From Colwellia sp. (GTDB taxonomy: Bacteria > Pseudomonadota > Gammaproteobacteria > Enterobacterales > Alteromonadaceae): 53,330 nucleotides of DNA. The stretch covers positions 1-53,330 of the forward strand of contig JABSOX010000033.1 of the NCBI GenBank assembly GCA_013215655.1. Direction: 5' to 3'. The notes beneath the pieces are model-generated. The model saw only the letters and a list, made by a program, of their open reading frames with translations, did not search any database and was not told the origin of the DNA. Positions 1,376 through 26,103 of the stretch are shown here, piece after piece; positions within the stretch are counted from its first letter, which is position 1, and every line of letters begins with the position of its first letter. Both the position numbers and the translations under genes were made by a program.

Positions 1376-1390
1376 TTCGCAATATGCGAC
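1376..1390. promoter_or_regulatory. Putative activator site TTCGCA-N3-TGCGAC
   Basis: A 15-bp near-palindrome, TTCGCA-ATA-TGCGAC, with one mismatch to TTYGCA-N3-TGCRAA, the motif also found at 3151, 17478 and 26089. Its centre is about 79 bp upstream of a GG-N10-GC sigma-54 element at 1461. That spacing suits an enhancer-binding protein. Assignment to the activator encoded at 3267 is inference. Confidence 0.5.
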
Positions 1391-1460
1391 TACGTCCTAG
1401 AATAAGAGCCAAACAAAACTCACACTAAATTTAAGTTAAAGATATCAAACAGATACAAGA

Positions 1461-1476
1461 TGGCTCAGTAAATGCC
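1461..1476 (+). promoter_or_regulatory. Putative sigma-54 promoter (-24/-12)
   Basis: TGGCTC-N5-ATGCC: GG at 1462-1463 and GC at 1474-1475 are separated by exactly 10 bases, matching the sigma-54 consensus TGGCAC-N5-TTGC well. The predicted transcript start near 1487 falls just ahead of the AGAGGAG ribosome site of the small gene at 1508. It also overlaps an upstream in-frame ATG at 1472, which is therefore probably not the start. Confidence 0.6.
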
Positions 1477-1507
1477 TTATTATTCAAAGGTAAAGAGGAG
1501 AAATATT

Positions 1508-1687
1508 ATGTCAAATTCAATGTTGTACTCAAATGAACACCATAAAAACGAGAAAACAGAAGTAGAGGTACCTTTATATCTTAATTATTTTCCCTCACGG
1601 GGCAAATGTGAAACTGAGGATAAAACAGGACACTGTATTCGATTTATTTTTCCCGATGAAACATACTACATCAAAGGCTATAATTAA
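1508..1687 (+). CDS. Small 59-residue protein of unknown function, sigma-54 controlled
   Basis: I do not recognise this protein. The ATG at 1508 is preceded by AGAGGAG at 1494-1500 with 7-base spacing, the best ribosome site in this part of the window. An in-frame ATG at 1472 lies inside the -12 promoter element, so the shorter form is preferred. The 59-residue product is hydrophilic with no signal peptide or membrane segment. It has two cysteines (in GKCETEDK and GHCIRFIF) and an aromatic tail ending TYYIKGYN. Its promoter and upstream site match those of algD and algA, so it probably belongs to the same regulon. A role in EPS regulation or assembly is only suggested by that association. Confidence 0.6.
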   Translation: MSNSMLYSNEHHKNEKTEVEVPLYLNYFPSRGKCETEDKTGHCIRFIFPDETYYIKGYN

Positions 1688-1705
1688 CATCGAAATAAAT
1701 GGTTC

Positions 1706-2998
1706 TTAGTTTCTTGGCGCTATAAATAAAGTAAATACGCTGTTGTGCTCTATTTCTAGCTCAGTTAACTTTTCAATATGATGTGACTCAACAATTACGC
1801 CTTTTGTTAATAGTGGCAGCATGTTGCCATTATTTAAGTCCTGCGTTAAAACATCTCCTTCCTTTAACTGGGCGATGTTTGCTGGATACTCGATAGTTCC
1901 TTCTTTTGCTGCGGGTCTAGTGTCTAATAAATCAAAATAAAGATTAATCACTTGTGGATCAAAAACCTTATTTGCAAGTTCTTCAATACGATGTTTCGCT
2001 TCTACCAGAGAAGTAGGTAACTGTGTTTGCCTTCCTAATACTAAGTTATCAAATGTAGCAACCACAGAAATTATCCTTGAACCTAGTGGTATATCCTCTT
2101 GAGATAAACGCTCTGGTACACCTAAACCATTATAATGTTCAGGAATATGCTTAATGATATTGGCAACATTTGCTAATTCTTTTACCTTTTCTAATAAAGT
2201 AGCTCCCTTTCCATAAAAAGAGTTATACGAAGTTCGCTCTTGTTGATTTAGGTGCTCTATGGGAGTTGATAAGAGAGATTGTGCTATAGACAACTTACCT
2301 GTTTCATAAAGCAAGCCAGCAATATATATCTGAAAAACAGTCAAGTTATCACATGCCATTTTTTCTGCAATGCTTCTTGCATGAGAGGCAACTCTAAAAT
2401 TATGTTTACTCGTATCCATAGTATGCAGTGAAATTATTTCTGCATTAAGATTGATGAAAGTGGAAAAAGTATTTTTCAATCGCACAAAACTTTTAGCTTC
2501 TTTAAAAGAGAGTTGTTCTAGCTTTTCATTACTTTTATTGATCTCTAATTCTAGCGAGCTATTCAAAAGTGAAAGTTCAGTGTTCTTCTCAATATTTTGT
2601 TTTAATAATCGTTTAGATTTAACTTCCGTGGTATATAGCTCATAGGCTAACTTTAGCTCTGATATTAATTCAAAGTTATCCCAAGGTTTTGCAAAATAGT
2701 GTGAAATTTTTCCTTCATTAACAGCCGTTACCGTTAAGTTAATATCCGCATGCCCCGTCAATAAAAATCGTTTAGATTTAGGATTTAGTTCAGTGATCCG
2801 CGATAAAAATGTTGCTCCATCCATTATTGGCATGCGCATATCTGAAATAACTAAAGGAACAGGACTATTTTCAAAAAACGCTATTGCTTCATGAGGATCC
2901 GAATATAAATGCAACTCAAAATCTTTTCGGAGAACACGATTTAAGGCGTTAAGTACTTCTTTTTCGTCATCCAGTATCAATAACTCAGGTTTTGACAT
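1706..2998 (-). CDS. Response regulator with degenerate HD-GYP domain
   Basis: 430 residues. The N-terminal receiver domain (about 1-120) has the acidic pair D10/D11, phospho-acceptor D53 in VISDMRMP, and a KPWD motif. A coiled-coil linker (about 125-175) is followed by a domain that aligns with HD-GYP c-di-GMP phosphodiesterases of the RpfG type. The metal ligands are lost: the HD pair reads YE (GLLYETGKL), the HxxxG histidine is Phe, HHE reads IPE, the later VADVFDAL-type Asp is Ala (VVATFDNL), and GYP reads GVP. It is probably not an active phosphodiesterase, but may still bind a partner or c-di-GMP. It diverges from the sigma-54 regulator at 3267, whose receiver also carries KPWDN. ATG start with GGA nine bases upstream. 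Confidence 0.85.
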   Translation of the reverse strand: MSKPELLILDDEKEVLNALNRVLRKDFELHLYSDPHEAIAFFENSPVPLVISDMRMPIMDGATFLSRITELNPKSKRFLLTGHADINLTVTAVNEGKISHYFAKPWDNFELISELKLAYELYTTEVKSKRLLKQNIEKNTELSLLNSSLELEINKSNEKLEQLSFKEAKSFVRLKNTFSTFINLNAEIISLHTMDTSKHNFRVASHARSIAEKMACDNLTVFQIYIAGLLYETGKLSIAQSLLSTPIEHLNQQERTSYNSFYGKGATLLEKVKELANVANIIKHIPEHYNGLGVPERLSQEDIPLGSRIISVVATFDNLVLGRQTQLPTSLVEAKHRIEELANKVFDPQVINLYFDLLDTRPAAKEGTIEYPANIAQLKEGDVLTQDLNNGNMLPLLTKGVIVESHHIEKLTELEIEHNSVFTLFIAPRN

Positions 2999-3150: not shown

Positions 3151-3165
3151 TTCGCATTTTGCGAA
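3151..3165. promoter_or_regulatory. Putative activator site, perfect palindrome TTCGCA-N3-TGCGAA
   Basis: TTCGCA-TTT-TGCGAA, symmetric through the flanking A/T pair as well. It lies between the divergent response regulators, about 100 bp upstream of the sigma-54 activator and about 150 bp upstream of the HD-GYP-like gene. No GG-N10-GC element was found on either side, so autoregulation by direct repression or activation of a sigma-70 promoter is the simplest reading (inference). Confidence 0.5.
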
Positions 3166-3266: not shown

Positions 3267-4688
3267 ATGGACGACTTACCGATTATTGTTCTTGTTGATG
3301 ATGACACCGCAATCCTTGCTGCCTTAAAAAGGGCTTTACGCAGTATATCAGCAAACATCTATGCCTTTGACTCGCCTTTAGAAGCAATACAATTTTGTGA
3401 ACATACTTTTCCTAATGTTATTATCTCAGACCAACACATGCCAGATATGGATGGCTGCACCTTCTTAGCTAATGTAAAAAAACGTTGGCCTAATTCGCAA
3501 CGTATTATTTTGTCGGCCTACCATGACTTTAAAAAAATATCATCTGCATTCAATGCTGGTGTGGTAGAGCGGTTTATCTGTAAACCCTGGGATAATAAGG
3601 AACTACTCTTTGTTATTGATAAGGCTCTAAACTCTCTTCCTGAGAATAGCAAAACAAAAAATAATGATAGTTATGATGAACCTATCAATTTTCATGGCAT
3701 CATTGCCGCTGATGATACTATGCATGATTTGTTTGATAGCATCAGGCACGCCGCGACAACAAATGCCCCTATCTTTGTCATGGGAGAAACAGGTACGGGT
3801 AAGGAGCTTGTTGCTCAAGCTTGTCATCAAGAAAGTTATCATAAAGATGAACCTTTTATTGCCGTAAATTGTGCAAATTTTAACGAGAACCTAATTGAGT
3901 CACAGCTATTTGGTCATATAAAAGGAGCGTTTACAGGAGCAACCACAAACCAAGAAGGATTATTTGCCGCAGCTAAACACGGCACGCTCTTTTTAGACGA
4001 AATATGTTCTTTATCTCTATCACTACAAGCCAAACTACTTAGAGTAATTCAAGAGCGAGAATTTTCACCTATTGGTACACATAAAATCCATAAATTCCAT
4101 GCGCAAATAATTTCAGCATCATCTAACTCTATCAGTAGTGCACTATTAAATGGCGATTTTAGAGAAGACTTGTACTACCGCCTGAATGTAATCACCGTTG
4201 CCTTACCCCCCTTACGAGATAGAGGTGCCGATATATTATTGATCGCACGTTATTTTTTGAAAAAATTTTCAAAAATAGAAAATAAACAATTTACCAAATT
4301 GTCACGAGATGCAATAAAAATAATGTGTTCATACGATTGGCCCGGCAACATCAGGCAATTGGAAAATATTATTCATGGCATGATAATCCTCAATACGGGT
4401 ACACAAATTACTGCCGAAATGATAATAAAATCACTATCGACAACCGTAAATGGTTTTATCACAAGAAATCAGCCATCCCGTGCATCTATTGAGCATACAA
4501 ATATAACAAAGAATACAGAATCGATTAATACGCAACGTAGTGAAACAAACATTCAACCGCTATGGCTGGTAGAAAAAGAAGCAATAGAAGCGGCAATTAG
4601 CTATTGTGGGGGAAATGTTCCCAAAGCAGCTGCTTTACTTGAAGTAAGTCCATCTACCCTTTATCGAAAAAAACAAAGCTGGGCTTAA
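3267..4688 (+). CDS. Sigma-54-dependent response regulator, NtrC family
   Basis: 473 residues in the classic three-domain order. The receiver (1-120) has D11-D13, phospho-acceptor D55 in IISDQHMP, and KPWDN. The AAA+ domain (about 142-370) has Walker A GETGTGKE at 173-180, the sigma-54 contact loop GAFTGA at 220-225, Walker B LFLDE around 241-245, and an arginine-rich REDLYYRLN/PPLRDRG segment. A Fis-type helix-turn-helix (about 448-470, GGNVPKAAALLEVSPSTLYRKK) binds DNA. When phosphorylated it should remodel sigma-54 RNA polymerase at distant promoters. It is the obvious candidate to bind the TTYGCA-N3-TGCRAA sites upstream of the EPS genes. No kinase gene is adjacent; the orphan kinase at 20009 is a possible partner. 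ATG at 3267 with AAGG six bases upstream. Confidence 0.93.
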   Translation: MDDLPIIVLVDDDTAILAALKRALRSISANIYAFDSPLEAIQFCEHTFPNVIISDQHMPDMDGCTFLANVKKRWPNSQRIILSAYHDFKKISSAFNAGVVERFICKPWDNKELLFVIDKALNSLPENSKTKNNDSYDEPINFHGIIAADDTMHDLFDSIRHAATTNAPIFVMGETGTGKELVAQACHQESYHKDEPFIAVNCANFNENLIESQLFGHIKGAFTGATTNQEGLFAAAKHGTLFLDEICSLSLSLQAKLLRVIQEREFSPIGTHKIHKFHAQIISASSNSISSALLNGDFREDLYYRLNVITVALPPLRDRGADILLIARYFLKKFSKIENKQFTKLSRDAIKIMCSYDWPGNIRQLENIIHGMIILNTGTQITAEMIIKSLSTTVNGFITRNQPSRASIEHTNITKNTESINTQRSETNIQPLWLVEKEAIEAAISYCGGNVPKAAALLEVSPSTLYRKKQSWA

Positions 4689-4697
4689 ATCCTCGTA

Positions 4698-6692
4698 TTA
4701 AAGTTCATTTAGCACGTTAAATGGATATGGCACCCCTTCATATTTGATAATCTCTCGACCTAACTTCCAAGAGCCAGGAATAGAAAGATGGCTTTTGTCA
4801 AAATAAATAGCCTCCCCATTAAGACTAAAAGCAGAACAGTTCTTATTTCTACAAATGAAGTCATTGGCATCAAAGTAATCCACATTTTCATTTTCCACTG
4901 AAAACGTCTTGAGACTAAGATTTATGGATGAGATATTTTTATCCATTAGTATGCTTGGCTTGTAGCAGTTCACAAAGGGAAAACTTAACGAACGTGATAA
5001 GCAGCTTTGATTATATGAAGAGATAATAGGTGCTTTGCCAATAAGAATAACTTGCTTCCCTTGTTTTATTAACTGTTTTACCGTTTGGTAGAAATCGACG
5101 AGAAATCCATCTGATTTAAGCTGATAACTCAGCCATGACGCAGATATTATAATGACTCTAAATTGTTCGAGATATTGCCAAAGTAACTTAAGTGAATCTC
5201 TACAGTTCTTAAAATGTTTAATGTTTACGTATTGTTTAATCGAGTTTTTTACTGGAGGACAAGCACTAATTTGTAAATTTCTGAAACTAAAACCTTGTTC
5301 TTTTGCAAAAGCCCCAATCATGCCAACATAATGAGCCGCATTTGAGTCTCCAATTAAGATAATTTGCGGTGTAGTGCTACCGCTCTCATTATTTGTTTCA
5401 TTGCCTAATATACAATGTGTGTTTTCTATATCTTTAATGTCAATCCGGCTCCTTTGACAAACATATTTATAATGATATGCAGCTTTCACATCGGTATTAA
5501 TACTTGTTAACTTTGTTTGATACTGAGGTGAAAACCATCGGACTCCATAACCATCTAAACTGTAAAAAAGTAATGCTAGTAGTGTAATGCTTGCCCCCGG
5601 AACTAAATACAATTTTATAAATAGACGCTTTGTAGATAAAGTAGAATACCGAAAAGGTTGTTCTATAAATCGAAAACTTAGCCAACCTAGAACTAATGTT
5701 ATACAAAATAATATGATGTTTACTAACCACGTTTGTTCAAATAAGCCATAACGAAAAAATGCAATAACAGGCCAATGCCACAAATACGTTGAGTATGAAA
5801 TCAAACCTATATTGACCAAAGGTTTAAACGTTAAATAACGATTTAAACTATTCGTTCCATAATGACCAGAAAATATAATAAATGCCGTTCCCATGGTCGG
5901 TAATAGACAGATAAATCCTGGAAATACAGAATCTTTAGAAATAACGTTCAAAGATAAAATAATTAAAATAAAACCCAACAAAGACATACTATTTAATACT
6001 GAATACGAATATTCTTTGCGAATTGGTTGATTAATGAGATAAGCGACAATTGAGCCGATTAATAATTCACCGGCTCTGGTTGGTAGCATGTAATAAACAA
6101 AAGAAGGAGATACATCAAAAAAGTATTGTGCGCTGCAAAAAGATAATAGCGAAATAAAAATCAACGAATATAAAAATAGAGAAGAGTATTTCCCGCGATA
6201 AAGAAATAATAAGATTATTGGCCAAATTATATAAAACTGCTCTTCAACACCAAGTGACCAAAAATGCAGTAAGGGCTTTTCATTCATTGTCGATGCAAAA
6301 TAACCCAGATCTTGAGAACTATAGAAATATATATTGGCCATAGATAATAATGACCAAATCCCAGACTCTGCAACATTTTTTGCATCATCGGGCAATAATA
6401 TCAGTTGTGATAAAGGGATTACCACGATGAGAACGGCAAGCATAGCCGGCGCTATGCGTTTAATTCGTCGTCGATAAAATTCTGTAATAGAAAAGGTTTT
6501 CCTATCTATTTGTTGGAAAATATAAAGTGAGATCAAGTAACCTGAAATGACAAAAAATATGTCTACGCCGACAAAACCGCCAGGCAATATATTTTTATCT
6601 ATATGAAAAATAACAACTGACAGTACCGCGATAGCGCGCAGTCCATCTATATCGGCTCGATAACTATTCCCTTTACGAACAACATCTTTCAT
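4698..6692 (-). CDS. OafA/YrhL-type O-acyltransferase with C-terminal SGNH domain
   Basis: 664 residues from the ATG at 6692 (GGTGA six bases upstream); a GTG nine bases earlier is less well placed. The N-terminal half is an acyltransferase-3 membrane domain with about ten helices, opening YRADIDGLRAIAVLSVVIFH and containing FFVISGYLIS and FWSLGVEEQFYIIWP, all hallmarks of the family. The C-terminal periplasmic part (about 400-664) is SGNH-like, with GDSNAAH as block I and DKSHLSIPG as the terminal Asp-x-x-His block. Such fusions carry acyl groups across the inner membrane onto polysaccharide. As the last gene of the alg44 operon it would add a second acylation route beside AlgI. It converges on the regulator at 3267 with a 9-bp gap. 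Confidence 0.88.
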   Translation of the reverse strand: MKDVVRKGNSYRADIDGLRAIAVLSVVIFHIDKNILPGGFVGVDIFFVISGYLISLYIFQQIDRKTFSITEFYRRRIKRIAPAMLAVLIVVIPLSQLILLPDDAKNVAESGIWSLLSMANIYFYSSQDLGYFASTMNEKPLLHFWSLGVEEQFYIIWPIILLFLYRGKYSSLFLYSLIFISLLSFCSAQYFFDVSPSFVYYMLPTRAGELLIGSIVAYLINQPIRKEYSYSVLNSMSLLGFILIILSLNVISKDSVFPGFICLLPTMGTAFIIFSGHYGTNSLNRYLTFKPLVNIGLISYSTYLWHWPVIAFFRYGLFEQTWLVNIILFCITLVLGWLSFRFIEQPFRYSTLSTKRLFIKLYLVPGASITLLALLFYSLDGYGVRWFSPQYQTKLTSINTDVKAAYHYKYVCQRSRIDIKDIENTHCILGNETNNESGSTTPQIILIGDSNAAHYVGMIGAFAKEQGFSFRNLQISACPPVKNSIKQYVNIKHFKNCRDSLKLLWQYLEQFRVIIISASWLSYQLKSDGFLVDFYQTVKQLIKQGKQVILIGKAPIISSYNQSCLSRSLSFPFVNCYKPSILMDKNISSINLSLKTFSVENENVDYFDANDFICRNKNCSAFSLNGEAIYFDKSHLSIPGSWKLGREIIKYEGVPYPFNVLNEL

Positions 6693-6741
6693 GGATATCA
6701 CCTGCGATTTTTATGTTACATAGCACAACTACATTAATGCC

Positions 6742-8832
6742 TTACTTAAAACTTTTGTTTACAGTAAAAAACATTGCCCGTTCATGCTGACTTATCGAAA
6801 ACAAAGGATTGTTCGCTAAAAATCCAGTGACATTTGACCAAGACCAATCTTTTATTTTTTTACAATTTGAATCACCTTCCTGAGCGACAGGAGTGCATAG
6901 AGAAAGAGATAACTGTAAATGAAATGGTTTTTCATTATTGCTTAATAATGCATAAGCAAGGTGTTTGCTGGAGGATGCACTACCTGGTAGCTTATGTGAA
7001 TAAAGTTGATTCAACGTTGGTGTAGCGAAGGCATGCCAACCAGCCCCTAAAGACCATCTAGGATTATAAGGGCCATTACCATCCATATCCCGAGGTAAAA
7101 TACTGCCAAGGTTTAACAAATCAGATAGGGTATTAGTTAATGCCATTTGATGCTCTTTATCTAATCTATAATGACTAAAAAGCAATCCCAATAAACTAAT
7201 ACCTGCATGATTTAGGTCCTCATAACGGTAATTCGACAAGTTTATTTCTCTTTGTTTGGGGCGATGTTTGGATATGTTATCTTCTGCTTTCCAGCCTTGA
7301 TAAAAGTGAGGTGTCCAATACCGCCACAAAACTCGCGAATTATCTTCAATAGTGAAATCCCATGTCGCAATAAACTGTTCAATTATTGCCACCACTCTTT
7401 TATTGAGATTTTTATCATTTGTTGTCTCGGCAACATGCTGCAATACACCTGCCCATACCAAATGCCAATTCCAAGGAGAGAAAATGCCGTCATATCGAAA
7501 ATTACTTGCATAAGGGATTCGGTATAGTCCCTGTTGATGATCAAAAAGATACTCGTAACTTGATACTAAACATTGTGCATTTGTGTCTATTTGTTCATTT
7601 AATGTTGTTGAGCAGTATTTACCTATTTTTTCACAACTAGCTATCAAACTATTAGCAATCATTCCCTGATTAATCAGAAAAGACAAAGGTGTTTTACGAT
7701 CTTGAGAGTATATTCTTGATGCCCATCCACATTGCGGATTGTGCCGTTGTGATATACCTAAGTTAATGTTTTTTTGTCGTAGTGTTGCTGACATCGCTTG
7801 CGACGCCAACTTAGCAAAAAATGGATGTTTAGTTTTTTGATAAAGCTCTGCCAGTGTCAGTGTACGATATGATTGACTCCAACTTTGCTTGCCAGCCTCA
7901 TCAGATGAAAGCGACATGGGCTCACCCAATAACTTAAGAATACTGCCAGATATTGCATGATACAATTGTCGAGCTGAGGTACTACCGCTAACCGTCAATA
8001 TTGGAAAACTGGCACTTTGTTTTTTGTGCTCTCTTTTTTGTTTTTTACTTAATAAAGAATAACCAAAGAACTCGTCATCGGTTCCTATTGCAATAGTCTG
8101 TAATTGCTGACTTTTAAAATCTAAAAATAATACGTCACTACCGTATTCCATTTGACAATAAGTCTGTAACAAAAGACCGTTTTTTAACAGTTTAGACGAT
8201 AAAACCGCACAGCCATCGATATGACCAAGTGCAACAAAGTCCTCTGCACTCGCCACTTTGTCACTTAACTCATATCTCAAAAAATGTGTTGTTAATTTTT
8301 TTTCCTCATAAACAGATAATATTAATACATTGTTATTAAATGAGATTATTTTAACATTGGTTAATCTTGGCCAGGAATATATGGCACTATTGTTGGAAAT
8401 TAAATTAACTTTTGAGCTTGGCCCTTTGGTTGTGTGAATAAAAACGTAGTCACCATTACGGTTAAATCGAAAACTACTTATTCTAGAAACATCGTCAATA
8501 TCATAACCATCAACAATCAGCTGTTGACCAAACATCATCGTTGACCGATATGCTCCCTCTTGCCAAAAATTTTGTAATAAATAATCGCCGCGCTTGGCGA
8601 CACTAATAAGCCCTTTTTTTGCCAGACCTTTCATAGACATCATTTGATTTGATGTATCGTAAGAAAAACCATTATTTTTTAGCGTTATCTGCCAATGTTT
8701 TTCTTCAACTTCGAATACATCTGAGATCCCCGCATTTAATAATTCGTTGGCAAAACTACAGAGTGACAACTGAAGTAGTACTAAAAATGTCACTGTTTTA
8801 CCGTACAACTGCTTCTTATTTAGGTAGATCAT
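6742..8832 (-). CDS. Exported protein of unknown function in EPS operon, possible polysaccharide-modifying enzyme
   Basis: 696 residues from the ATG at 8832, which has GGAGG six bases upstream. A signal peptide (about 1-23, ending LSLCSFA) exports it. Residues about 30-260 look beta-rich. Residues about 290-640 are helical with recurring aromatic and His-containing turns (NPQCGWASR, FSPWNWHLVWAG, RYEDLNHAG, SLGAGWHAFATPTLNQL). That pattern is reminiscent of the alpha/alpha-toroid fold used by polysaccharide lyases and C5-epimerases, but I cannot match it to a named family. It lies between algI and the OafA-type gene with 49-70 bp gaps, where alginate loci carry periplasmic epimerase and lyase genes. 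It could do an equivalent job; this is inference from position and fold impression only. Confidence 0.7.
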   Translation of the reverse strand: MIYLNKKQLYGKTVTFLVLLQLSLCSFANELLNAGISDVFEVEEKHWQITLKNNGFSYDTSNQMMSMKGLAKKGLISVAKRGDYLLQNFWQEGAYRSTMMFGQQLIVDGYDIDDVSRISSFRFNRNGDYVFIHTTKGPSSKVNLISNNSAIYSWPRLTNVKIISFNNNVLILSVYEEKKLTTHFLRYELSDKVASAEDFVALGHIDGCAVLSSKLLKNGLLLQTYCQMEYGSDVLFLDFKSQQLQTIAIGTDDEFFGYSLLSKKQKREHKKQSASFPILTVSGSTSARQLYHAISGSILKLLGEPMSLSSDEAGKQSWSQSYRTLTLAELYQKTKHPFFAKLASQAMSATLRQKNINLGISQRHNPQCGWASRIYSQDRKTPLSFLINQGMIANSLIASCEKIGKYCSTTLNEQIDTNAQCLVSSYEYLFDHQQGLYRIPYASNFRYDGIFSPWNWHLVWAGVLQHVAETTNDKNLNKRVVAIIEQFIATWDFTIEDNSRVLWRYWTPHFYQGWKAEDNISKHRPKQREINLSNYRYEDLNHAGISLLGLLFSHYRLDKEHQMALTNTLSDLLNLGSILPRDMDGNGPYNPRWSLGAGWHAFATPTLNQLYSHKLPGSASSSKHLAYALLSNNEKPFHLQLSLSLCTPVAQEGDSNCKKIKDWSWSNVTGFLANNPLFSISQHERAMFFTVNKSFK

Positions 8833-8902
8833 TACTGCCTCCAAAATATTGTCGAAATTTGTTATCGATTAACGCATTTATTGGTGCCTTCTTCCCTTTA
8901 AA

Positions 8903-16714: not shown

Positions 16715-17200
16715 CTACAACGTTTCTAACAGCCAGTTTATCGCCTGTATTAAGGGTAATGCTTGAATACCAAATTCACTAATTTCATTATCAACAATAC
16801 CGTGGCTATTACATACAGCAATAATAGGCTTATGCTTTTTACTAAACTCCTTAAGTAATTCTATAGAGTACTTGCCTCCACCAATAACAAGGGCAGCATG
16901 ACAATAGGATACAACTTGTTGATGTTTTGCGTGTTTACATTTTTGAGTTAAAATTGTATCGGCAAATGGGTGTGATCGCGGCTGATCAGAATCAACTATC
17001 GCCATGGTATTACCGCGGCAAAGTTTTGCTCCTAAAAAACCATAACTAAAAGTCCCTTTGATATTGCCTGCTACTACATTGCAGCCTTTACTTGCTAATA
17101 CAAATCCGGCCATCAAAGCCATACAACGGTTCATTACCGGCACATCGTTAGCAAAACCTACGATAGCAATATTATGGTGAGCTGCTCTTGAGTTATTCAT
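16715..17200 (-). CDS. SLOG-domain protein (LOG/TIGR00725-like)
   Basis: 161 residues. A Rossmann-like nucleotide-binding domain of the SLOG group: opening HNIAIVGFAND, an ALMAGFVLASKGCNVVAGN segment, and a glycine-rich ALVIGGGKYSIELL loop near residue 108. Proteins of this fold include LOG phosphoribohydrolases and several nucleotide-sensing proteins. The PGGxGTxxE motif of true LOG enzymes is not present (GGGKYSIELL instead), so ligand binding is more likely than that catalysis. It sits between the alg44 operon and algD, on the alg44 strand. RBS AGGAGAGG just upstream of the ATG. A weak GG-N10-GC element at 17284-17297 faces it. A regulatory role in EPS production is inference. Confidence 0.7.
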   Translation of the reverse strand: MNNSRAAHHNIAIVGFANDVPVMNRCMALMAGFVLASKGCNVVAGNIKGTFSYGFLGAKLCRGNTMAIVDSDQPRSHPFADTILTQKCKHAKHQQVVSYCHAALVIGGGKYSIELLKEFSKKHKPIIAVCNSHGIVDNEISEFGIQALPLIQAINWLLETL

Positions 17201-17470
17201 AACCTCTCCTCTTTAATATTGTTAGTCTGTTGCAACATATAAAAACAAGAGCGTTTTCGGTTTTTATGAATCTGTAAAGTTCGGCACTTAAGCAACCTTG
17301 TATGCTTATATTTGGATAACTTAACGTTGCGTGATTTCATTGTTGTTTACCTTATTAAACTCAGTAAAAATACATAAGCAAATAACAATCCATCTAGATA
17401 AAATCATATAAATTTAGATACTTAACACCATAAAGATTAAACGTTAGCCATTGTTAAATAATAAGACGAC

Positions 17471-17499
17471 AGTTTGCTTTGCATTTTGCAAAGCAAACT
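17471..17499. promoter_or_regulatory. Perfect palindrome with 13-bp arms upstream of algD; putative enhancer site
   Basis: Arms AGTTTGCTTTGCA (17471-17483) and its exact complement (17487-17499) surround a TTT spacer. The inner core TTTGCA-TTT-TGCAAA is the same motif as at 3151 and 26089. Its centre is about 105 bp upstream of the algD -24 box. There is no poly-T run and no upstream gene on the plus strand, so a terminator is unlikely. It is the best candidate for the binding site of the activator encoded at 3267. Confidence 0.6.
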
Positions 17500-17588: not shown

Positions 17589-17604
17589 TGGCATGCATTC
17601 TGCA
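17589..17604 (+). promoter_or_regulatory. Putative sigma-54 promoter of algD
   Basis: TGGCAT-N5-CTGCA: GG at 17590-17591 and GC at 17602-17603, exactly 10 bases apart, with the TGGCA half of the consensus intact. The predicted transcript start near 17615 gives a leader of about 30 bases. Pseudomonas algD is also activated through distant sites, though by a different factor arrangement. Confidence 0.65.
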
Positions 17605-19156: not shown

Positions 19157-19190
19157 TAATTGACGCAAGGTCGCAGTCTTACGTCAATTA
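19157..19190 (+). other. Hairpin between algD and the DUF4114-like gene
   Basis: TAATTGACG (19157-19165) pairs with CGTCAATTA (19182-19190) around a 16-base loop. No poly-T follows, so it is more likely a processing or partial-termination element than a full terminator; the downstream RBS AGGA begins right after it. Confidence 0.4.
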
Positions 19191-19201
19191 GGAATTCTCC
19201 T

Positions 19202-19957
19202 ATGAAATATCTATCGAAGTTTTTAAAGTTTATTCTATTAACAACATCTTTGTTGACGACAATAATAACCTTAGCCACACCTATTAGTATTTTTGGTGGA
19301 AAAATCTATGCGGAAAATAATAGCATGATTGAATATGCGGTTTTATATGAGGCCGCAGCCTATCGACACGACTTATATTATGAATTTGGCGAATCTCAAG
19401 GTTATATCGCTACGAACCCTAAAGGTACTGGCGGTGCTCATGGTTGTAAGTTTTGTAGCTATCCGAGTATTTACGGTAATTTTTATTTGAATGATTTGCC
19501 GACAACTACTGAAATAGTATTTCGATTAGAAATTAATAATAAGGGCTTAAATGGTGCGCTACGGACGGGATCTGCAGAAGTAAACCCGGACAACCTGATT
19601 CATGCTTGGCTTGCAATCGCTGAAGGTTTACCTTCACTAGATGAAAAATTTGGACTAAACATTGCCCATGAGTCATTTTCGATAAACACCTTAATAAGTT
19701 ATTATCATCATAATAACTCAATTAGTAAATTACTCGCGCATAATGATACAAGGTTTATTGGTTTTGAAGATATTCTTGGTGGTGGTGATCTAGATTACAA
19801 TGATATTATTTTTGCTTTTAGAGGCGTGAATACAGTACCTGTAAATTTGGCAAGAGTTAACACGGTAGTTGAACCGAACTCACTTTTACTCTTGTTAACG
19901 GCAATATTTATTATTTTAATCAATACCTTGCCTAAAGACGTTTCTAATTCCAACTGA
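19202..19957 (+). CDS. Secreted DUF4114-like protein with PEP-CTERM-like tail
   Basis: 251 residues from ATG 19202 (AGGA eight bases upstream). A signal peptide (about 1-26) is followed by a domain whose end, IGFEDILGGGDLDYNDIIF (about 185-203), is the hallmark of DUF4114 secreted proteins. The C-terminus has VVEPNSLLLLLTAIFIILI and then a short polar tail. This resembles a PEP-CTERM sorting signal (Glu-Pro, hydrophobic helix, tail), but has VEP instead of PEP and lacks the usual Arg cluster. If functional, an exosortase elsewhere would process it; PEP-CTERM proteins are commonly linked to EPS loci. Two cysteines form a CKFC motif near residue 81. It is probably co-transcribed with algD. Confidence 0.75.
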   Translation: MKYLSKFLKFILLTTSLLTTIITLATPISIFGGKIYAENNSMIEYAVLYEAAAYRHDLYYEFGESQGYIATNPKGTGGAHGCKFCSYPSIYGNFYLNDLPTTTEIVFRLEINNKGLNGALRTGSAEVNPDNLIHAWLAIAEGLPSLDEKFGLNIAHESFSINTLISYYHHNNSISKLLAHNDTRFIGFEDILGGGDLDYNDIIFAFRGVNTVPVNLARVNTVVEPNSLLLLLTAIFIILINTLPKDVSNSN

Positions 19958-20008: not shown

Positions 20009-21829
20009 TCAAACTGACGATTCCGTCTCATTACTTCTTATCGGCAAATAAAGAGAAAAACAACTACCTTCACCTAAGGTTGAAACAACGTCTAACCTAC
20101 CATCATGTTGTTCAATAATTTGGTGGCTAATTGATAACCCTAACCCAGTGCCCTCACCAATAGCTTTGGTGGTATAAAATGGTGTAAATATTTGTGATAA
20201 ATGTTCAGGATTTATACCGCACCCTGTATCCTTAACCTCCACAACAATATCATTATTTTTTACATAAGTACGTACATAAATATCGCCTTTGTCGTCAATA
20301 GATTGCCCGGCATTAATTAACAAATTCATGAAAACTTGATTTAATTTGCCAGGGTAAGCAAATATTCGTGGCAATGGCTTTAAGTCCACATGGATCTTAC
20401 AATTGAATTTAAGCTCATTCCAGACCATATTTAAGGTCGCATTAAGGCCTTCATTTATATCTACTATAGATTTATCGGGTAGGTCTATGCGCGCAAACGT
20501 TTTTAAACTTTGCACTATTTCTGTAACACGCTCAACGCCACCAATGCTACTTTCAAGCAGTGGTGGAATATCTTTCAAGAAAAATTCAATATCATGTTTT
20601 TTAGCCAAATCTTGCTGAATAGCCCTTTGGGTTTCATTGGTTAAATTCAGTAAACTTGTATGATAATATTTTTCAATATCAACAAAGTAATCTCTTAACA
20701 TCGATAAGTTACTTTTGATGAAACCAATGGGATTATTAATTTCATGGGCAACACCTGACGCTAAAACACCGATACTGGCCATTTTTTCTGACTGAACAAG
20801 TTGTGATTCACTTTGTTTTAATTCGTCGTTCGCACAAGAAAGCTTACTATAGCTTTTCCTCAATGCGTCCTCTCTCTTAGCTACTTTTTCGGTCATTAGA
20901 TTAAATTTTTTAAAAAGTTCGGCAAGCTCCCTGATGTGAATGTTTTCAGTCAAATTGATACGTTCATCGCCCTTATCAAGCTGATCAGTTGCTTTTGATA
21001 ACGAGAGGATTGGTTTTACAAAATAACGATAGCCAAATAAATAAGTGAGAAAAGTGGTGATAGCAATGGCAATTAAAATTATTGCCCCTAATTGAAATGC
21101 TAAACGACTAAGTTCTTCATTAAGAGCGGTATCATCTATGGTGAAGCGAAAGACCACCCCTACTTGTTGCCATGCTTCTAGATGTTGACGCCCTGTTATA
21201 CTATTACCAAACGACGTCAATACTTTTTCATCTTGAATTATTTCAACCATTAATCCATTTAGTCTTGAATTCTGACTTTGCTGATTAATGAAATCAATGG
21301 GTATATTGGCCACTAAAACACCTTCAACTTGGTTGTTATAATAAATGGGCACCGCAAGGCTCCAGTAATATGCTCCAGATATATTTACTGCGCTAACATG
21401 ATTATTTTGTTGTTGTTGTAAAAGTTGATTAACCCAAGTGAATTGTTGATAGTCTATATTAATATCTTTGGTGGTCGTATGTAGTGTATTACCTTCAAAA
21501 TCCAATAAACTCTCTTCATATTGTTTGCCCAATAATGTGAGGTCAGACATAAAATCCTGTACTTTCCCTAGATTTGCATCCGGTTGCATTAGCGCTTGAA
21601 TATACAGTGGGGTATTTGCTTGTTCTGCGAGTAAAATTAAATGTTGTTCAATAAATATTTTGTAATTATTAGTAATCGTACTAATTTCTCGATTAATAAT
21701 TTTATCATATTCTTTATTTGTTGAATTCAGCACATAATTTATAACTAAAATCGAGGTGATCACCGCTAAACTTAGATAACTAATAAAAACAAAACGGGCT
21801 AATGCAAATGAAATAGAAGTTTTTTTCAC
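20009..21829 (-). CDS. Membrane sensor histidine kinase (Cache-like sensor, HAMP, HisKA, HATPase_c)
   Basis: 606 residues. A membrane helix (about 10-32) and a second (about 245-268) enclose a periplasmic sensor of about 210 residues. HAMP follows (about 270-325), then a short coiled coil, HisKA with the phospho-accepting His in GVAHEINNPIG, and a C-terminal HATPase with NLLINAGQSI, DTGCGI and GEGTGLGLSISHQII. No receiver domain. GTG start, 7 bp after the stop of the binding-protein gene upstream, so the two form an operon. The binding protein probably delivers the ligand signal. No response regulator gene is adjacent; the sigma-54 regulator at 3267 is the best local candidate target (inference). 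Confidence 0.9.
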   Translation of the reverse strand: MKKTSISFALARFVFISYLSLAVITSILVINYVLNSTNKEYDKIINREISTITNNYKIFIEQHLILLAEQANTPLYIQALMQPDANLGKVQDFMSDLTLLGKQYEESLLDFEGNTLHTTTKDINIDYQQFTWVNQLLQQQQNNHVSAVNISGAYYWSLAVPIYYNNQVEGVLVANIPIDFINQQSQNSRLNGLMVEIIQDEKVLTSFGNSITGRQHLEAWQQVGVVFRFTIDDTALNEELSRLAFQLGAIILIAIAITTFLTYLFGYRYFVKPILSLSKATDQLDKGDERINLTENIHIRELAELFKKFNLMTEKVAKREDALRKSYSKLSCANDELKQSESQLVQSEKMASIGVLASGVAHEINNPIGFIKSNLSMLRDYFVDIEKYYHTSLLNLTNETQRAIQQDLAKKHDIEFFLKDIPPLLESSIGGVERVTEIVQSLKTFARIDLPDKSIVDINEGLNATLNMVWNELKFNCKIHVDLKPLPRIFAYPGKLNQVFMNLLINAGQSIDDKGDIYVRTYVKNNDIVVEVKDTGCGINPEHLSQIFTPFYTTKAIGEGTGLGLSISHQIIEQHDGRLDVVSTLGEGSCFSLYLPIRSNETESSV

Positions 21830-21836
21830 AAAACGG

Positions 21837-23075
21837 TTACTCTTGGTTCGGCTGGATTAATACAACTTCATTATCACTGCCAAAATATCCCATAGTATAA
21901 TCATCGATAGCTAATGCCTCATGAGCATCTAAGTTGCTAGATGAGTATCTAGAAAAGGGTTTATCGTATACTTTTAATAAACCTCTTACGGGTGATTGTA
22001 AATCTACTAAAGCATTACGAATTGCCAGTTTGTCCGTATTCCTATCGCCCGATAATCCTGCTTGTCTAATTGCTGCAATGAGTATTTTGGTCAAATCATA
22101 ACTATGAACAAATCCAGTATGTGCTTTTATGTCACTTTTATTAATAATCTCCTTATGATGTTTTTTTGCAGTGTCAAAAACCGAGTTTGCAAATGTTGAC
22201 AGTTCTCTATGCAAAAAAGAGAAATTTGTTTGGATAAATTGTAAATCTAAATTGGCTCGTTGTTCTTTATCGATGGCTTGATGAAAGTCTCCTCCAGTTA
22301 TGCCCCAGTGACTACGAATAGGTAAACGAATACTTTTAGGTAAATCGATCATTGCTCTTGAGAACACTTTCCCCTCGGGTGTATTACCAACAAATAAAAT
22401 ACCATCGGCACCAGCTTGTTTAATATTTCGTAGTATTAATTTGGCCTGATTTTTACCAAGTCCCCAGTTAAACCAAGAGATACCAGTAACTTTAAGTCCA
22501 TGACTTTTTAATGCCCTACTCATTGTTCGTTCATTTGATTTCCCCCAACCGGTGTCTTCTAACAACAAGTAAAGGTTTTCAAAACCTTCTTCCATTGCAC
22601 GTTTAACGATATATGTGCCGGCATTACTATCGTCTATCGACAGGCGAAAAATCCAATTATCTTTTTGATTGGAACGTGTTATTGGACCTGCAGCAGCCCA
22701 AGGGTCAAGTATTAAAATTCCTTGACGATTAATGAAGGCCTTGTTGGACAACAAAGGCGGTGAATGTAGACCTGAAAATATTAACAACGCCGTTTCATCT
22801 TGAAGATAACTATCCAGATTTTTTTTACTGCGCAGTGAATTTGCGCGGTGATCTTTAATAATTACATCAAAAGTAAAGCCACTAATTTCATAGTTAACTT
22901 CGGCAAGAGCTGTATTAATACCCTGCTGAATTGATTGGCTCGACGCTTTTGTACCAGTAAAGTCGGCATCTATATATAAAGAATATTTTTTTTCTGCAGA
23001 GATTGATTGCCCGCAAAATAAAAACAGAGACATATAAAGAAAATAATAAGTAAATGGAGTTTGAATTTTTATCAT
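21837..23075 (-). CDS. ABC-type amino-acid/amide substrate-binding-like protein, probable sensor partner
   Basis: About 412 residues. A signal peptide (about 1-27, ending SISA) leads a type-I periplasmic binding fold of the branched-chain amino-acid/amide group (Peripla_BP_6): YIDADFTGTKASSQSIQQGI at the start, a central YLLLEDTGWGKSNERTMSRA, and HSYDLTKILIAAIRQAG near the C-terminus. No transporter genes are nearby, and the gene is followed within 7 bp by a membrane histidine kinase. A sensory input role is therefore more likely than uptake. The ATG at 23075 is preferred to a GTG six bases earlier; both lie near a weak GAGAG ribosome site. Confidence 0.83.
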   Translation of the reverse strand: MIKIQTPFTYYFLYMSLFLFCGQSISAEKKYSLYIDADFTGTKASSQSIQQGINTALAEVNYEISGFTFDVIIKDHRANSLRSKKNLDSYLQDETALLIFSGLHSPPLLSNKAFINRQGILILDPWAAAGPITRSNQKDNWIFRLSIDDSNAGTYIVKRAMEEGFENLYLLLEDTGWGKSNERTMSRALKSHGLKVTGISWFNWGLGKNQAKLILRNIKQAGADGILFVGNTPEGKVFSRAMIDLPKSIRLPIRSHWGITGGDFHQAIDKEQRANLDLQFIQTNFSFLHRELSTFANSVFDTAKKHHKEIINKSDIKAHTGFVHSYDLTKILIAAIRQAGLSGDRNTDKLAIRNALVDLQSPVRGLLKVYDKPFSRYSSSNLDAHEALAIDDYTMGYFGSDNEVVLIQPNQE

Positions 23076-23120
23076 TGTCACTTGCTCTCAATACCGTCAA
23101 TTATTTATAATTTTCATATA

Positions 23121-23173: not shown

Positions 23174-24535
23174 TTAATCGACTATCGAGAGTATTTCTTT
23201 AACTTTATTTGCTAATAATTCTTTACACCCCTTAGTTTCAACATTTAGCCGTAACAAAGATTCTGTATTAGATTTTCTTAAATTAAAACGCCAATGTTCA
23301 AAGCTCATTGATAAACCATCAATATTGTTAATTGATAATGCGCTATGTTGATAATATTTATTTACTTTATCTATCAGCATATCAGGGTCACTCACATTAC
23401 GGTTAATCTCTCCAGATGACGGAAAACTTTTCATTTGTTGATTAACGTATGTAGACAATGGTTGGTTACTACGTGAAATGAGTTCAATAATTAATAACCA
23501 TGGGATCATGCCACTATCACAATAGCCAAAATCACGAAAATAATGATGTGCACTCATTTCACCGCCATAAATCGCATTTTCTTTTCTCATACGCTCTTTA
23601 ATAAATGCGTGGCCCGTTTTAGTTTCAATTGCCGTACCGCCATTTTTAGTAACAATATCGACAGTATTCCAAATCAACCTCGGATCATGAATAATTTTTT
23701 CACTCGGATATTGCTTTAAAAAGAACTCAGCAAGTAATCCAACAATATAATAACCTTCAATGAATTCACCGTTTTCATCAAACAAAAAGCAGCGATCAAA
23801 ATCACCATCCCATGCAATACCTAAATCTGCTTTATGTAAAAGCACAGCTTGCTTAGTTACTTCTCGATTTTCAGGTAATAAAGGGTTAGGTACGCCATTG
23901 GGAAATTCTCCATTAGCCTCGTGGTATATTTTGTAAAATTCTATGGGTATTTTTTGTTTCCAGAATCTTTTTTGAATAATATCAATAATGTGACCAGCGA
24001 CACCATTACCTGCATTAACAACCAACTTCAATGGTTTTAATTTCTTTACTTTAATGAACTCAAGAATATGATCAATGTACGGAGCGACTGTAGAAAGATA
24101 AAACAAATTACCGCCAAGGGTTAAATTTTGACAATTCATTTTCTCCGCTAACGCCTTAATCTCATTTAAGCCGGAGTCGCTACTGATTGGTTTGCTGTCT
24201 TCACGAACCAGTTTCATGCCATTATAGTTTTTGGGATTATGACTAGCGGTAATGACAATGCCACCACTTGCTTCCAAAAAACGTGTCGCAAAATATATTT
24301 CCTCGGTCCCGCAAACACCGATGTCAACCACATCACAATTTACACTCCGTATCCCCTCAATAACGGCTTGTTTTAATTCAGGCGTCGAAAGACGACAATC
24401 ACCACCAACGACAATCAATTTGGCTTGCAAAAACAGCGCCATGGCTTTACCTATTCTTGCCGCGATATCCGTATTAAGTTCTTTACCTACTTCCCCTCGA
24501 ATATCATAGGCTTTAAAACAATTTAAGGTTTGCAT
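23174..24535 (-). CDS. algC: Phosphomannomutase/phosphoglucomutase
   Basis: 453 residues, the usual family length. It interconverts mannose-6-phosphate and mannose-1-phosphate (and usually the glucose pair). The phosphoserine loop is GIVITASHNPKNYNGMK (serine in TASHNP, about residue 100), the metal site is DGDFDR, the sugar-binding loop is GGEMSAHHYF, and the phosphate-binding end has RFNLRKSNTESLLRLN. Together these cover all four domains of the alpha-D-phosphohexomutases. The ATG overlaps the algA stop by 13 bases, with GGAGA seven bases upstream, so expression is coupled to algA. In this context it supplies mannose-1-phosphate for the EPS. The symbol rests on context; manB is equally defensible. 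Confidence 0.9.
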   Translation of the reverse strand: MQTLNCFKAYDIRGEVGKELNTDIAARIGKAMALFLQAKLIVVGGDCRLSTPELKQAVIEGIRSVNCDVVDIGVCGTEEIYFATRFLEASGGIVITASHNPKNYNGMKLVREDSKPISSDSGLNEIKALAEKMNCQNLTLGGNLFYLSTVAPYIDHILEFIKVKKLKPLKLVVNAGNGVAGHIIDIIQKRFWKQKIPIEFYKIYHEANGEFPNGVPNPLLPENREVTKQAVLLHKADLGIAWDGDFDRCFLFDENGEFIEGYYIVGLLAEFFLKQYPSEKIIHDPRLIWNTVDIVTKNGGTAIETKTGHAFIKERMRKENAIYGGEMSAHHYFRDFGYCDSGMIPWLLIIELISRSNQPLSTYVNQQMKSFPSSGEINRNVSDPDMLIDKVNKYYQHSALSINNIDGLSMSFEHWRFNLRKSNTESLLRLNVETKGCKELLANKVKEILSIVD

Positions 24536-25959
24536 AATACAGTCTCCTGCTCTCTACCGTAAATGTCCTCAAAACGAATAATGTCATCTTCCCCTAAATA
24601 CGCACCTGATTGTACTTCAATCAATTCAAGAGGGATTTTCCCTTTATTTTCTAGACTATGTATTACTCCAATAGGAATATAAGTAGATTGATCTTCTGTT
24701 AAAAGTGTAAATTCATCACCATTTTGAATACTTGCCGTTCCTCGCACCACGGTCCAGTGTTCAGCGCGATGAAGGTGTTTTTGTACTGATAACTTCTCAC
24801 CAGGCTTAACAGTAATATGTTTTACTTGGTAGCGATTGCCTTCATCAATTGAGTCATACTTACCCCATGGTCGATAAACTTGACGGTGATGATGATATTC
24901 AGTTCGCTTTTCAGCCTTGAGTTGATTAACGAGATTTTTAAGTTCTTCTTCATTGTCTTTGTTGGCAACTAAAACAGCATCGTGAGTTTCAATAACAATA
25001 ATATTTTCTAATCCGATCGTCGCAACAAGTCGATAATCACTTCTGACCAAAGAGTTTGTTGTTTGATGCATCAACACATTGCCACTGCTAACATTTCCCT
25101 GCTGATCTTTTTCCATTAAATTCCATAAGGAAGACCAGCAGCCGACATCGTGCCAAGGGCAATTTAATAAGACAACTATTGCCTTGCTGGTATGTTCAAT
25201 AACGGCATAATCTATCGACTTATTTTCACAATTTAAAAAATACTCCTGATCAAGACGAACAAAATCATTTTCAAAACTTATCTGTTTAAGTGATTCTGTA
25301 CAGTTTGTAAGTATGTTGGGCTGAAATTTTTTAACTTCAGCAAGAATAGTGCTAGCTGAAAACATAAAAATCCCACAATTCCAATAATACTCGCCACTTT
25401 CTACATATTTCTCAGCAAGTTCATGGTTTGGCTTCTCAACAAACTCATTAACATCAAAAACAGCATTATCGACCATACAATGACCACGATGTATATAACC
25501 ATATCCGGTATGCGCACTGGTGGGGGAAATGCCAAACGTAACCAATTTACCTGCTTCAGATTGACTAATAGCAAGCTCAATGGAACGAGTGAACTCAGTT
25601 TTATTTTCAATATGATGATCCGCAGAAAGCACTAATAAAGTAGGATCACTGTTATGAGCTTTAGCTTGTGCGATTAAGGCGGCAATGGTTATCGCAGGAG
25701 CGGTATCGCGCCCTTCAGGCTCTAAGACTATCGTTGCCCTACAATCTATTTGTTTAAGCTGCTCTGCAACAATAAATCGATGTTCTTCATTGCAAACGAC
25801 TATCGGGGTGGCGGCGTCGAGACCCGATAACCGCTCTACCGTATTTTGCAGAAGACTTTTTTCACCATACAAATTAATAAACTGTTTTGGATAAAGTGAG
25901 CGAGACACCGGCCACAACCTTGTTCCTGAACCACCCGCCAATATAATTGGATATATCAT
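24523..25959 (-). CDS. algA: Mannose-1-phosphate guanylyltransferase / mannose-6-phosphate isomerase
   Basis: 478 residues, the normal length for the bifunctional type. The N-terminal nucleotidyltransferase (about 1-290) has the pyrophosphorylase signature GGSGTRLWPVSR plus YPKQF, then LSADHHIE, GYGYI and FVEKP. The C-terminal cupin isomerase domain (about 325-478) has RPWGKYDSID, YQVKHITVKPGEKLS and HLHRAEHWTVVRG with the metal-binding histidines. It makes GDP-mannose, the substrate for AlgD. Leader gene of the algA-algC pair. A GG-N10-GC element about 40-50 bp upstream and a TTCGCA palindrome about 130 bp upstream link it to the same control as algD. Homologues serve other GDP-mannose polysaccharides, so the name rests on the locus. 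Confidence 0.92.
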   Translation of the reverse strand: MIYPIILAGGSGTRLWPVSRSLYPKQFINLYGEKSLLQNTVERLSGLDAATPIVVCNEEHRFIVAEQLKQIDCRATIVLEPEGRDTAPAITIAALIAQAKAHNSDPTLLVLSADHHIENKTEFTRSIELAISQSEAGKLVTFGISPTSAHTGYGYIHRGHCMVDNAVFDVNEFVEKPNHELAEKYVESGEYYWNCGIFMFSASTILAEVKKFQPNILTNCTESLKQISFENDFVRLDQEYFLNCENKSIDYAVIEHTSKAIVVLLNCPWHDVGCWSSLWNLMEKDQQGNVSSGNVLMHQTTNSLVRSDYRLVATIGLENIIVIETHDAVLVANKDNEEELKNLVNQLKAEKRTEYHHHRQVYRPWGKYDSIDEGNRYQVKHITVKPGEKLSVQKHLHRAEHWTVVRGTASIQNGDEFTLLTEDQSTYIPIGVIHSLENKGKIPLELIEVQSGAYLGEDDIIRFEDIYGREQETVLCKP

Positions 25960-25995
25960 AAGATCACCACTAAGTTAAGAACCTAGTAGTTACAC

Positions 25996-26011
25996 TGCAT
26001 AATGTATTCCC
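25996..26011 (-). promoter_or_regulatory. Putative sigma-54 promoter of algA-algC
   Basis: Read on the minus strand: GGGAATACATTATGCA, with GG-N10-GC spacing and a TGCA -12 box; the -24 half is weaker than at algD. Predicted start near 25985. The perfect palindrome at 26089-26103 lies about 86 bp upstream, the right place for an enhancer-binding protein. Confidence 0.5.
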
Positions 26012-26088
26012 ATTCACACAAAAAAAACATTAAACCTTAAATATCAATAAAATAGATAAAATACACATTAATAGATCATTAATAACTC

Positions 26089-26103
26089 TTCGCAAATTGC
26101 GAA
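26089..26103. promoter_or_regulatory. Putative activator site, perfect palindrome TTCGCA-N3-TGCGAA
   Basis: TTCGCA-AAT-TGCGAA, the same motif as at 3151 and 17478 with identical spacing. It lies between the divergent algA operon and the plus-strand small ORF/SBP genes, so it could serve either side; only the algA side shows a sigma-54 element. Confidence 0.55.

Follow-up and report, generated by a model that had tools for sequence, protein, structure and literature searches.

The window analysed in this work is a 53,330-nucleotide stretch of Colwellia sp. (assembly GCA_013215655.1, contig JABSOX010000033.1), in which a polysaccharide locus of about 25 kb, alginate-like in its gene content, carries four copies of a palindrome that matches the published operator of LuxO, the sigma-54-type regulator known from the qrr genes of Vibrio. 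Taken as a whole, the locus is best explained, with a probability that we put at roughly 0.84, as the regulon core of an enhancer-binding protein of the LuxO/SypG type, for which the gene at 3267..4688 is the candidate.

According to this model, a histidine kinase, together with a periplasmic ligand-binding partner (20009-23081), most likely phosphorylates the 3267 activator, which would then bind LuxO-type palindromes of the form TYGCAWWWTGCRA located about 70-105 bp upstream of -24/-12 elements. Once bound, the activator would drive sigma-54 RNA polymerase at a small gene at 1508, at algD together with the gene divergent from it and at algA-algC, in the last case probably onward into the sensor and kinase genes, which would constitute a positive loop; alg44 and the synthase genes would probably be driven more weakly. 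The operator copy on the regulator side most likely serves to control how much of the regulator is made, in the manner of the repression of luxO by LuxO in Vibrio.

Predicted palindromic operators of the polysaccharide locus

The original prediction placed four palindromes of the form TTYGCA-N3-TGCRAA in this stretch, and all of them were found there, three without mismatch (3151-3165, 17478-17492 and 26089-26103) and one with a single mismatch (1376-1390), each outside open reading frames (ORFs) of at least 150 amino acids (aa). A 13-bp core, TYGCAWWWTGCRA (TYGCA-WWW-TGCRA, with an AT-only centre), is exact in all four, the 1376 site included. The strict TTGCA half-site is present in one of them (17479), while the other three have TCGCA. 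The operators, listed without strand, are the following:

1376..1390, operator TTCGCAATATGCGAC, core exact, upstream of the 59-aa ORF; GG-N10-GC at offset 78
3151..3165, operator TTCGCATTTTGCGAA, in the gap separating the regulator gene from its divergent partner; neither flank has a GG-N10-GC element at 30-220 bp
16442..16454, degenerate alg44 operator with one good half-site and three mismatches; offset 99
17478..17492, operator TTTGCATTTTGCAAA, between algD and the divergent 161-aa gene; includes the LuxO-type site TTGCATTTTGCAA
26089..26103, operator TTCGCAAATTGCGAA, upstream of algA; a perfect 15-mer

Well under one such palindrome had been expected by chance in the window. This estimate held for the exact forms: three exact 15-mers and four exact cores are present, against 0.07 expected in each case, and none of 100 shuffles reached three or four, respectively. 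In the whole genome (5.56 Mb in 161 contigs), the exact 15-mer occurs at four places, three of them in the window (reversed control, three). The exact core occurs at seven (reversed control, four) and, in the genome-wide scan suggested along with the original prediction, proved to be concentrated in the locus, where four of the seven lie within 24.7 kb. The binomial probability of this clustering is 1.4e-8, a post hoc value, as the core was defined after the sites were known.

Sigma-54-like promoter elements

GG-N10-GC elements had been reported near three of the four sites, and they were indeed present at 1461, 17589 and 25996. Measured from the centre of the respective core (1377, 17479 and 26090), the downstream distances are 78, 104 and 85 bp, and the elements face the 59-aa ORF, algD and algA, respectively. 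The separate element described for alg44 at 16334, with a degenerate site about 100 bp upstream, was recovered as well. A second element, on the far side of the algD operator (17377), is absent from the original prediction. For scoring, each element was compared at eight additional positions with the sigma-54 consensus given in PMC3352281 (TGGCACG-N4-TTGCW):

1461..1476 (+), sigma-54-like element TGGCTCAGTAAATGCC for the 59-aa ORF; 4/8 scored positions, offset 78
16334..16349 (-), sigma-54-like element CGGCTTATTCCTTGCT for alg44; 4/8
17377..17392 (-), sigma-54-like element TGGATTGTTATTTGCT facing the 16715-17200 gene; 5/8, offset 93; also found by the genome pair pattern (see below)
17589..17604 (+), sigma-54-like element TGGCATGCATTCTGCA for algD; 6/8, offset 104
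25996..26011 (-), weak sigma-54-like element GGGAATACATTATGCA for algA; 3/8, offset 85

The weak algA element and the degenerate alg44 site qualify the proposal of sigma-54 promoters at the polysaccharide genes. A scan of the window for TGGCAC-N5-TTGCW with up to two mismatches returned 26 matches vs. 25.9 expected, and sigma-54-like elements without operators are therefore uninformative. Sigma-54 itself is encoded in the genome (rpoN, 501 bits; cut-off 277).

Among 22 operator-element pairs from 37 loci (element score of at least 5), distances of about 80, 90 and 102 bp are favoured and recur roughly every 11 bp (0.0004 when compared with uniform spacing, a value to which many related pairs and some loci fetched via the motif contribute). 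Hence, helical phasing of the operator relative to the element is suggestive only.

The activator encoded at 3267 and its similarity to LuxO

The protein proposed to bind the palindromes is encoded beside the 3151 operator:

3267..4688 (+), sigma-54-type activator (Pfam Response_reg, Sigma54_activat and HTH_8)

It comprises a receiver, an AAA+ domain with GAFTGA and Walker A motifs and a Fis-type helix-turn-helix (HTH), all that an intact activator would need and the domain set by which NtrC-type sigma-54 enhancer-binding proteins are predicted. Palindromic operators upstream of -24/-12-like elements, together with rpoN in the genome, likewise fit a protein of this type.

Several lines of evidence place it close to LuxO. 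Its best NCBIfam model is LuxO (418.7 bits), with the cut-off of 800 not reached; 11 proteins in 197 genomes pass that cut-off, with 848-870 bits. LuxO (5ep0) is also its best match among solved structures in a sequence search. The HTH of the 3267 protein, CGGNVPKAAALLEVSPSTLYRK, was compared with that of an over-cut-off LuxO protein (in L110), and the recognition helix reads VSPSTLYRK in the former and VSPSTIYRK or VSPSTLYRK in the 11 over-cut-off LuxO proteins, presumed to be from Vibrio. When the genome was searched with this HTH, the 3267 protein itself scored 90 bits and all others at most 23. The helices of the five best of the seven further matches, which were the ones inspected, all differ: LTKSSMYRR, ISRNALYRR, LTKSTMYRR, LSKSAIYRR and LSRSAFYRR. 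Alanine scanning of V. cholerae LuxO has identified eleven HTH residues that matter (PMC11407668); in an alignment by eye, eight of the eleven are kept in the 3267 protein and positions 411, 425 and 429 differ.

The operator reported for LuxO is TTGCA-N3-TGCAA (PMC3352281), also given as TTGCAWWWTGCAA (PMC10162802). By chromatin immunoprecipitation sequencing (ChIP-seq) of V. cholerae LuxO, four of the five targets listed have this form and the fifth is ttgcaaatcgcga (PMC10328515); one listed target, ttgcattttgcaa, is present letter for letter in the algD site. The palindrome is thus not a new motif, since its core is the published LuxO operator. Both the operator and a matching recognition helix, by which LuxO would be recognized, are present here. 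A recognition helix nearly that of LuxO, whose published site equals the core, is a second argument, next to the site adjoining its gene, for the 3267 protein as the probable binder of the palindromes, in agreement with the original prediction.

A glycine in the linker between the receiver and AAA domains, a position whose role in LuxO is treated in PMC4878744, is also present in the 3267 protein. It does not discriminate here, as the NtrC-like sequence L041 has glycine in the same column.

Conservation in related genomes

A set of 20 loci fetched by means of the regulator (L046-L058, L093, L095, L099 and L174-L177; 367 kb, window excluded) contains 17 exact cores, distributed over 14 of the loci. 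Nine of the 17 are paired, i.e., have a sigma-54-like element scoring at least 4 at 60-110 bp on one side. The 119 other permutations of the half-site gave on average 0.37 sites and 0.07 pairs, and none equalled the true core; the highest one, YTGCA (11 sites and five pairs), overlaps the true core, and the next had at most two sites and no pairs.

We also searched 17 whole genomes with a relative of the regulator, the window's included, for TTGCAWWWTGCRA followed by TGG-N10-GC after 58-88 bases, a pattern that leaves out the TCGCA form. It occurred 22 times, in 12 of the 17 genomes, while the reversed control did not occur at all. The flanks of 17 occurrences were read (those in L138, L140, L145, L149 and L152 were left out), and 16 of these are situated either inside polysaccharide loci or no more than about 6 kb from the regulator. 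One of the 22 precedes a small gene.

Conservation was partial: the operator recurs at orthologous genes in some relatives. In a second Colwellia (L051/L183), the core lies between algD and its divergent neighbour (L183:14690), with elements on both sides at offsets of 90 and 115 (4/8 each), and alg44 has an element (5/8) with a further exact core at a distance of 69 bp. Two Pseudomonadales loci, nearly identical to each other, have a site with one mismatch at algD, 105 bp from TGGCACAGAGTTTGCG. A relative of alg8 (E up to 1e-40) was detected in five of 16 relatives' genomes with the regulator, that in G081 being a fragment only.

The genes behind the sites vary. In Psychromonas, Thalassomonas and Psychrobium, cores and elements precede syp-like genes (for a STAS protein and glycosyltransferases), so named by eye from the gene order of L174, whose own syp-like locus has no exact core. 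In G006, G031 and G034 they stand before genes whose VWA-like products end in PEP-CTERM-like tails (by eye), and before the genes divergent from these. Exact cores with elements were also found at genes near a different LuxO-like clade in a congener (L175) and near a SypG-like protein in another family (L177).

Evaluation of alternative explanations

A number of observations weigh against a LuxO/SypG-type regulon core. With one mismatch allowed, the rarity claimed for the palindrome did not hold up: the window count is ordinary (four vs. 1.38 expected, with 6 of 100 shuffles reaching four), and the 43 places found genome-wide are fewer than those of the reversed control (62), so that the signal is carried by the exact core only. 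The exact 15-mer is in modest excess in 16 relatives' genomes (36 places vs. 22 reversed, the genome of L055 left out), and the AT-centred core and the element are therefore needed to part signal from noise; in G084 and in G086 it occurs 0 times vs. three for the reversed pattern. The regulon had been called dedicated, which was too strong, since three of the seven genomic core sites are outside the locus, each with a GG-N10-GC element 68-113 bp away. Within the window, the alg44 site is three mismatches off, and the algA element agrees at 3/8 scored positions and has no T before GG. Among the relatives, six of the 20 loci (L052, L055, L056, L057, L099 and L174) have no exact core, so that the expectation of conservation stood only in part; the coreless L052 and L055 have regulators that are 61% and 56% identical. 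The algD promoter of a close relative (L047, also Colwellia) has a degenerate site only. The core and the distance limits were set after a first look at the relatives, and the permutation test is thus strong, not blind. Finally, the kinase is assigned to the regulator by gene order alone.

That the 3267 protein binds the sites, and that its real sigma-54 targets are algD with its neighbour and the small gene only, algA and alg44 having ordinary promoters or being reached by read-through, would fit the weak elements at 25996 (3/8) and 16334 (4/8) and the degenerate alg44 operator. The algA operator is, against this, a perfect 15-mer, and in L051/L183 an exact core lies close to the alg44 element; the narrower target set is rather unlikely. 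The palindromes might instead belong to another regulator, such as one that represses polysaccharide genes, in which case the GG-N10-GC elements, a short and common pattern, would be coincidental; the site beside the regulator gene, which has no sigma-54 element, would agree with this. Another binder is nevertheless improbable in view of the 22 vs. 0 pairings with TGG-N10-GC, the nine of 17 cores paired in the regulator-fetched loci, the solitary standing of the 3267 protein in the genome HTH search (90 bits, next 23) and the presence of sites near its relatives in several genera despite differing polysaccharide genes. Chance clustering of an AT-rich palindrome, for which the ordinary one-mismatch counts and the late definition of the core could be adduced, can hardly be credited given four exact cores against 0.07 expected, the pair pattern in the 17 genomes and the fact that all 119 scrambled cores were beaten in 20 other loci.

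The operator adjacent to the regulator gene

In five of 13 named relatives (L047, L048, L049, L050 and L051), the orthologous regulator is immediately preceded by an exact core. In an alignment, read by eye, of the window with eight of the 13, L046 and L058 keep about half of the regulator-side core and L053 none of it. Downstream of the core the alignment reveals a conserved CTA..C.T stretch that could be the -10 region of a sigma-70 promoter. Since the 3151 operator has no sigma-54 element and a possible sigma-70 -10 region is present, the site is probably autoregulatory, and we infer that the direction would be that of luxO, whose autorepression has been reported in V. harveyi (PMC3482212).

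Alternatively, the site might activate the divergent receiver-HD gene (1706-2998), given that it lies between two divergent genes and that an HD gene stands beside the regulator in seven of the 13 relatives. We consider this unlikely: on the HD-gene side there is no GG-N10-GC within 220 bp, and L050 and L051, in which the regulator has no HD gene beside it, still carry the core upstream of the regulator. 

Phylogenetic placement and comparison with known systems

In a tree of 68 regulators, the 3267 protein and 17 relatives formed one clade (100/100), apart from the 11 LuxO proteins (100/100). The placement of this clade was unchanged in a second tree of 45 proteins that included the L174 protein, which is taken as SypG from its syp-like neighbours and grouped with other LuxO-like proteins outside the window clade. 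Both trees were midpoint-rooted, with long branches flagged, and the order of the clades is accordingly tentative. The 3267 protein thus belongs, under a midpoint root, neither to the LuxO clade nor to a group with the L174 protein. The nearest named relatives by regulator are Colwellia. Judged by sequence, the system is a third branch of the LuxO/SypG kind, placed on an alginate-like locus.

With LuxO the system shares the TTGCA-N3-TGCAA core, a near-identical recognition helix, the domain plan and the sigma-54 type. Unlike LuxO, the window protein forms a separate clade and stays below the LuxO cut-off, and it has polysaccharide genes, a kinase and a ligand-binding protein in its neighbourhood. 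Moreover, the window has no Rfam match of any kind at gathering scores, whereas Qrr was found beside all three LuxO loci tested.

SypG and ScvE are described as sigma-54 response regulators that act on the promoters of polysaccharide loci, syp and scv (PMC8941931, PMC10162802), and scv loci have been reported in 28 genera (PMC8941931). The likeness to the window extends to the type of regulator, the kind of locus and a related operator. The published SypG motif, however, is TTCTCANNNTGMDWN (PMC10162802), the window clade is separate, the genes of the window are alginate-like rather than of the syp type, and the neighbouring kinase shows no receiver domain in Pfam.

PrsR, the PEP-CTERM-box response regulator (TIGR02915), is also NtrC-type, and three relatives of the 3267 protein lie near genes for proteins with PEP-CTERM-like tails (by eye); the 3267 protein scores 316 bits against this model, whose cut-off is 502.6. 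In Pseudomonas, alginate control (AlgB and others) likewise has an NtrC-type regulator act on an alginate gene set; in the window, by comparison, the operator is of the LuxO type.

The operator, the type of protein and the control of polysaccharide genes by a LuxO cousin (SypG, ScvE) are already known (PMC10162802, PMC8941931). In the mostly non-subscription literature covered, no paper was found to describe the window clade or to connect alginate-like loci with an operator or regulator of the LuxO type. For an alginate-like locus, the model provides a control circuit that is concrete and can be tested, and it predicts the site bound by a regulator clade not yet characterised from that of a well-studied one. 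The LuxO operator, which in several examined genomes is found with LuxO-like regulators at loci for polysaccharides, can be seen in a new light: the DNA signal read by LuxO may be a wider slime-gene switch, not peculiar to quorum sensing, of which the quorum-sensing use may be a special case. Should this hold, a scan for the operator beside sigma-54 elements could reveal slime loci in many marine bacteria. More tentatively, and with more doubt than belief, the TYGCAWWWTGCRA operator and the helix could be ancestral to polysaccharide regulators of marine Gammaproteobacteria, as a module that swaps cargo (alginate-like, syp-like or PEP-CTERM-type), with LuxO-Qrr of Vibrio as a branch co-opted for small RNA.

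Gene content of the locus

The genes around the operators are listed below; alg-type names were taken over from the original prediction, except for algD (matched in PDB) and algA and algC (matched in Pfam), and the row at 4698..16307 was assigned by Pfam search.

1508..1687 (+), 59-aa ORF behind the 1461 element; no Pfam match
1706..2998 (-), divergent partner of the regulator, with receiver and HD_5 domain; 376 bits with the NCBIfam NosR-family model vs. a cut-off of 400
4698..16307 (-), polysaccharide gene row
4698..6701 (-), acyltransferase
6742..8844 (-), 700-aa protein
8903..10426 (-), MBOAT/AlgI
10484..11770 (-), Sel1
11727..13097 (-), SGNH-like
13094..14686 (-), alg8
14673..16307 (-), alg44
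16715..17200 (-), 161-aa gene with a weak SLOG-cluster match (Pfam LDcluster4, E 2e-5, 24.6 bits vs. a cut-off of 26.3)
17645..19141 (+), algD, GDP-mannose 6-dehydrogenase; best PDB match 1mfz, E 4.5e-115
19160..19957 (+), gene directly following algD; its product matches DUF4114 and ends in a PEP-CTERM-like tail (by eye)
20009..21829 (-), histidine kinase, HisKA and HATPase_c (HAMP and dCache below cut-off; Pfam)
21837..23081 (-), periplasmic ligand-binding protein, Peripla_BP_6 (Pfam), probable sensor subunit
23174..25959 (-), algC (23174-24535) and algA (24523-25959), by Pfam

The predicted GDP-mannose dehydrogenase AlgD agrees with a locus of the alginate type. The gene row 4698-16307 is probably one operon. 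In L051, relatives of all its genes but the acyltransferase gene follow one another in the same order. No PDB sequence match was obtained for the alg44-like, SGNH-like and alg8-like proteins. The 161-aa gene is divergent from algD, as is its 40% identical relative in L183.

The kinase and ligand-binding genes come after algA and algC on the same strand. Their relatives lie within 5 kb of the regulator in seven of the 13 named relatives (L047, L048, L049, L051, L053, L054 and L055), and about 15 kb from it on the same contig in an eighth (L050/L178), which points to the 20009 kinase as the probable partner of the 3267 regulator and, by extension, as the presumed source of its phosphorylation. 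Within 401 bases spanning the 92-base gap that precedes the sensor and kinase genes, a scan gave five sigma-70-like matches, counting both strands (2.5 expected), and detected no terminator; co-transcription from the algA promoter is therefore likely, not certain.

HD-GYP enzymes carry HD and GYP motifs. At these positions the receiver-HD protein (1706-2998) has YETGK and GLGVP, and it may therefore be catalytically dead. The 700-aa protein has no Pfam or NCBIfam match at E 0.001 and a 56% identical relative in L051. Like the 59-aa ORF, a 66-aa gene in L091 (6155-6355) follows a core and a sigma-54-like element at offset 78 and ends in GYN. We do not claim the two as relatives, as 44 of 500 shuffles align as well. 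Near the locus (window 26240-31899), three genes at 26240, 30201 and 31012 resemble those for solute-binding proteins and all match one L091 gene; the first, the only one of the three scanned, was assigned to Pfam SBP_bac_3.

Outlying sites and other observations

One of the outlying exact cores (L102, genome contig C86) lies between kinase-like and response-regulator-like genes, with TGGTATATCAATTGCA 113 bp on, and is a possible further target. At another (L107), a sigma-54-like element is followed by a strongly folding stretch (z -9.95) with no same-strand gene among ORFs of at least 80 aa. L107, L101 and L102 were without an Rfam match at E up to 1. The L107 stretch was dropped as a Qrr-like RNA, as it proved to be a repeat: 1020-1380 (genome contig C100) belongs to a repeat that is about 320 bases long and whose listed copies in the genome are 89-100% identical to the query. 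In a DNA search, at least six copies of at least 317 bases were detected in the genome, with matches in at least 19 of 117 relatives, both lower bounds given that up to six candidates were scored per genome. The repeat looks like a mobile or REP-type element. On a relative's contig, L084:5451-5706 matches a group I intron (Rfam RF00028, 84.6 bits).

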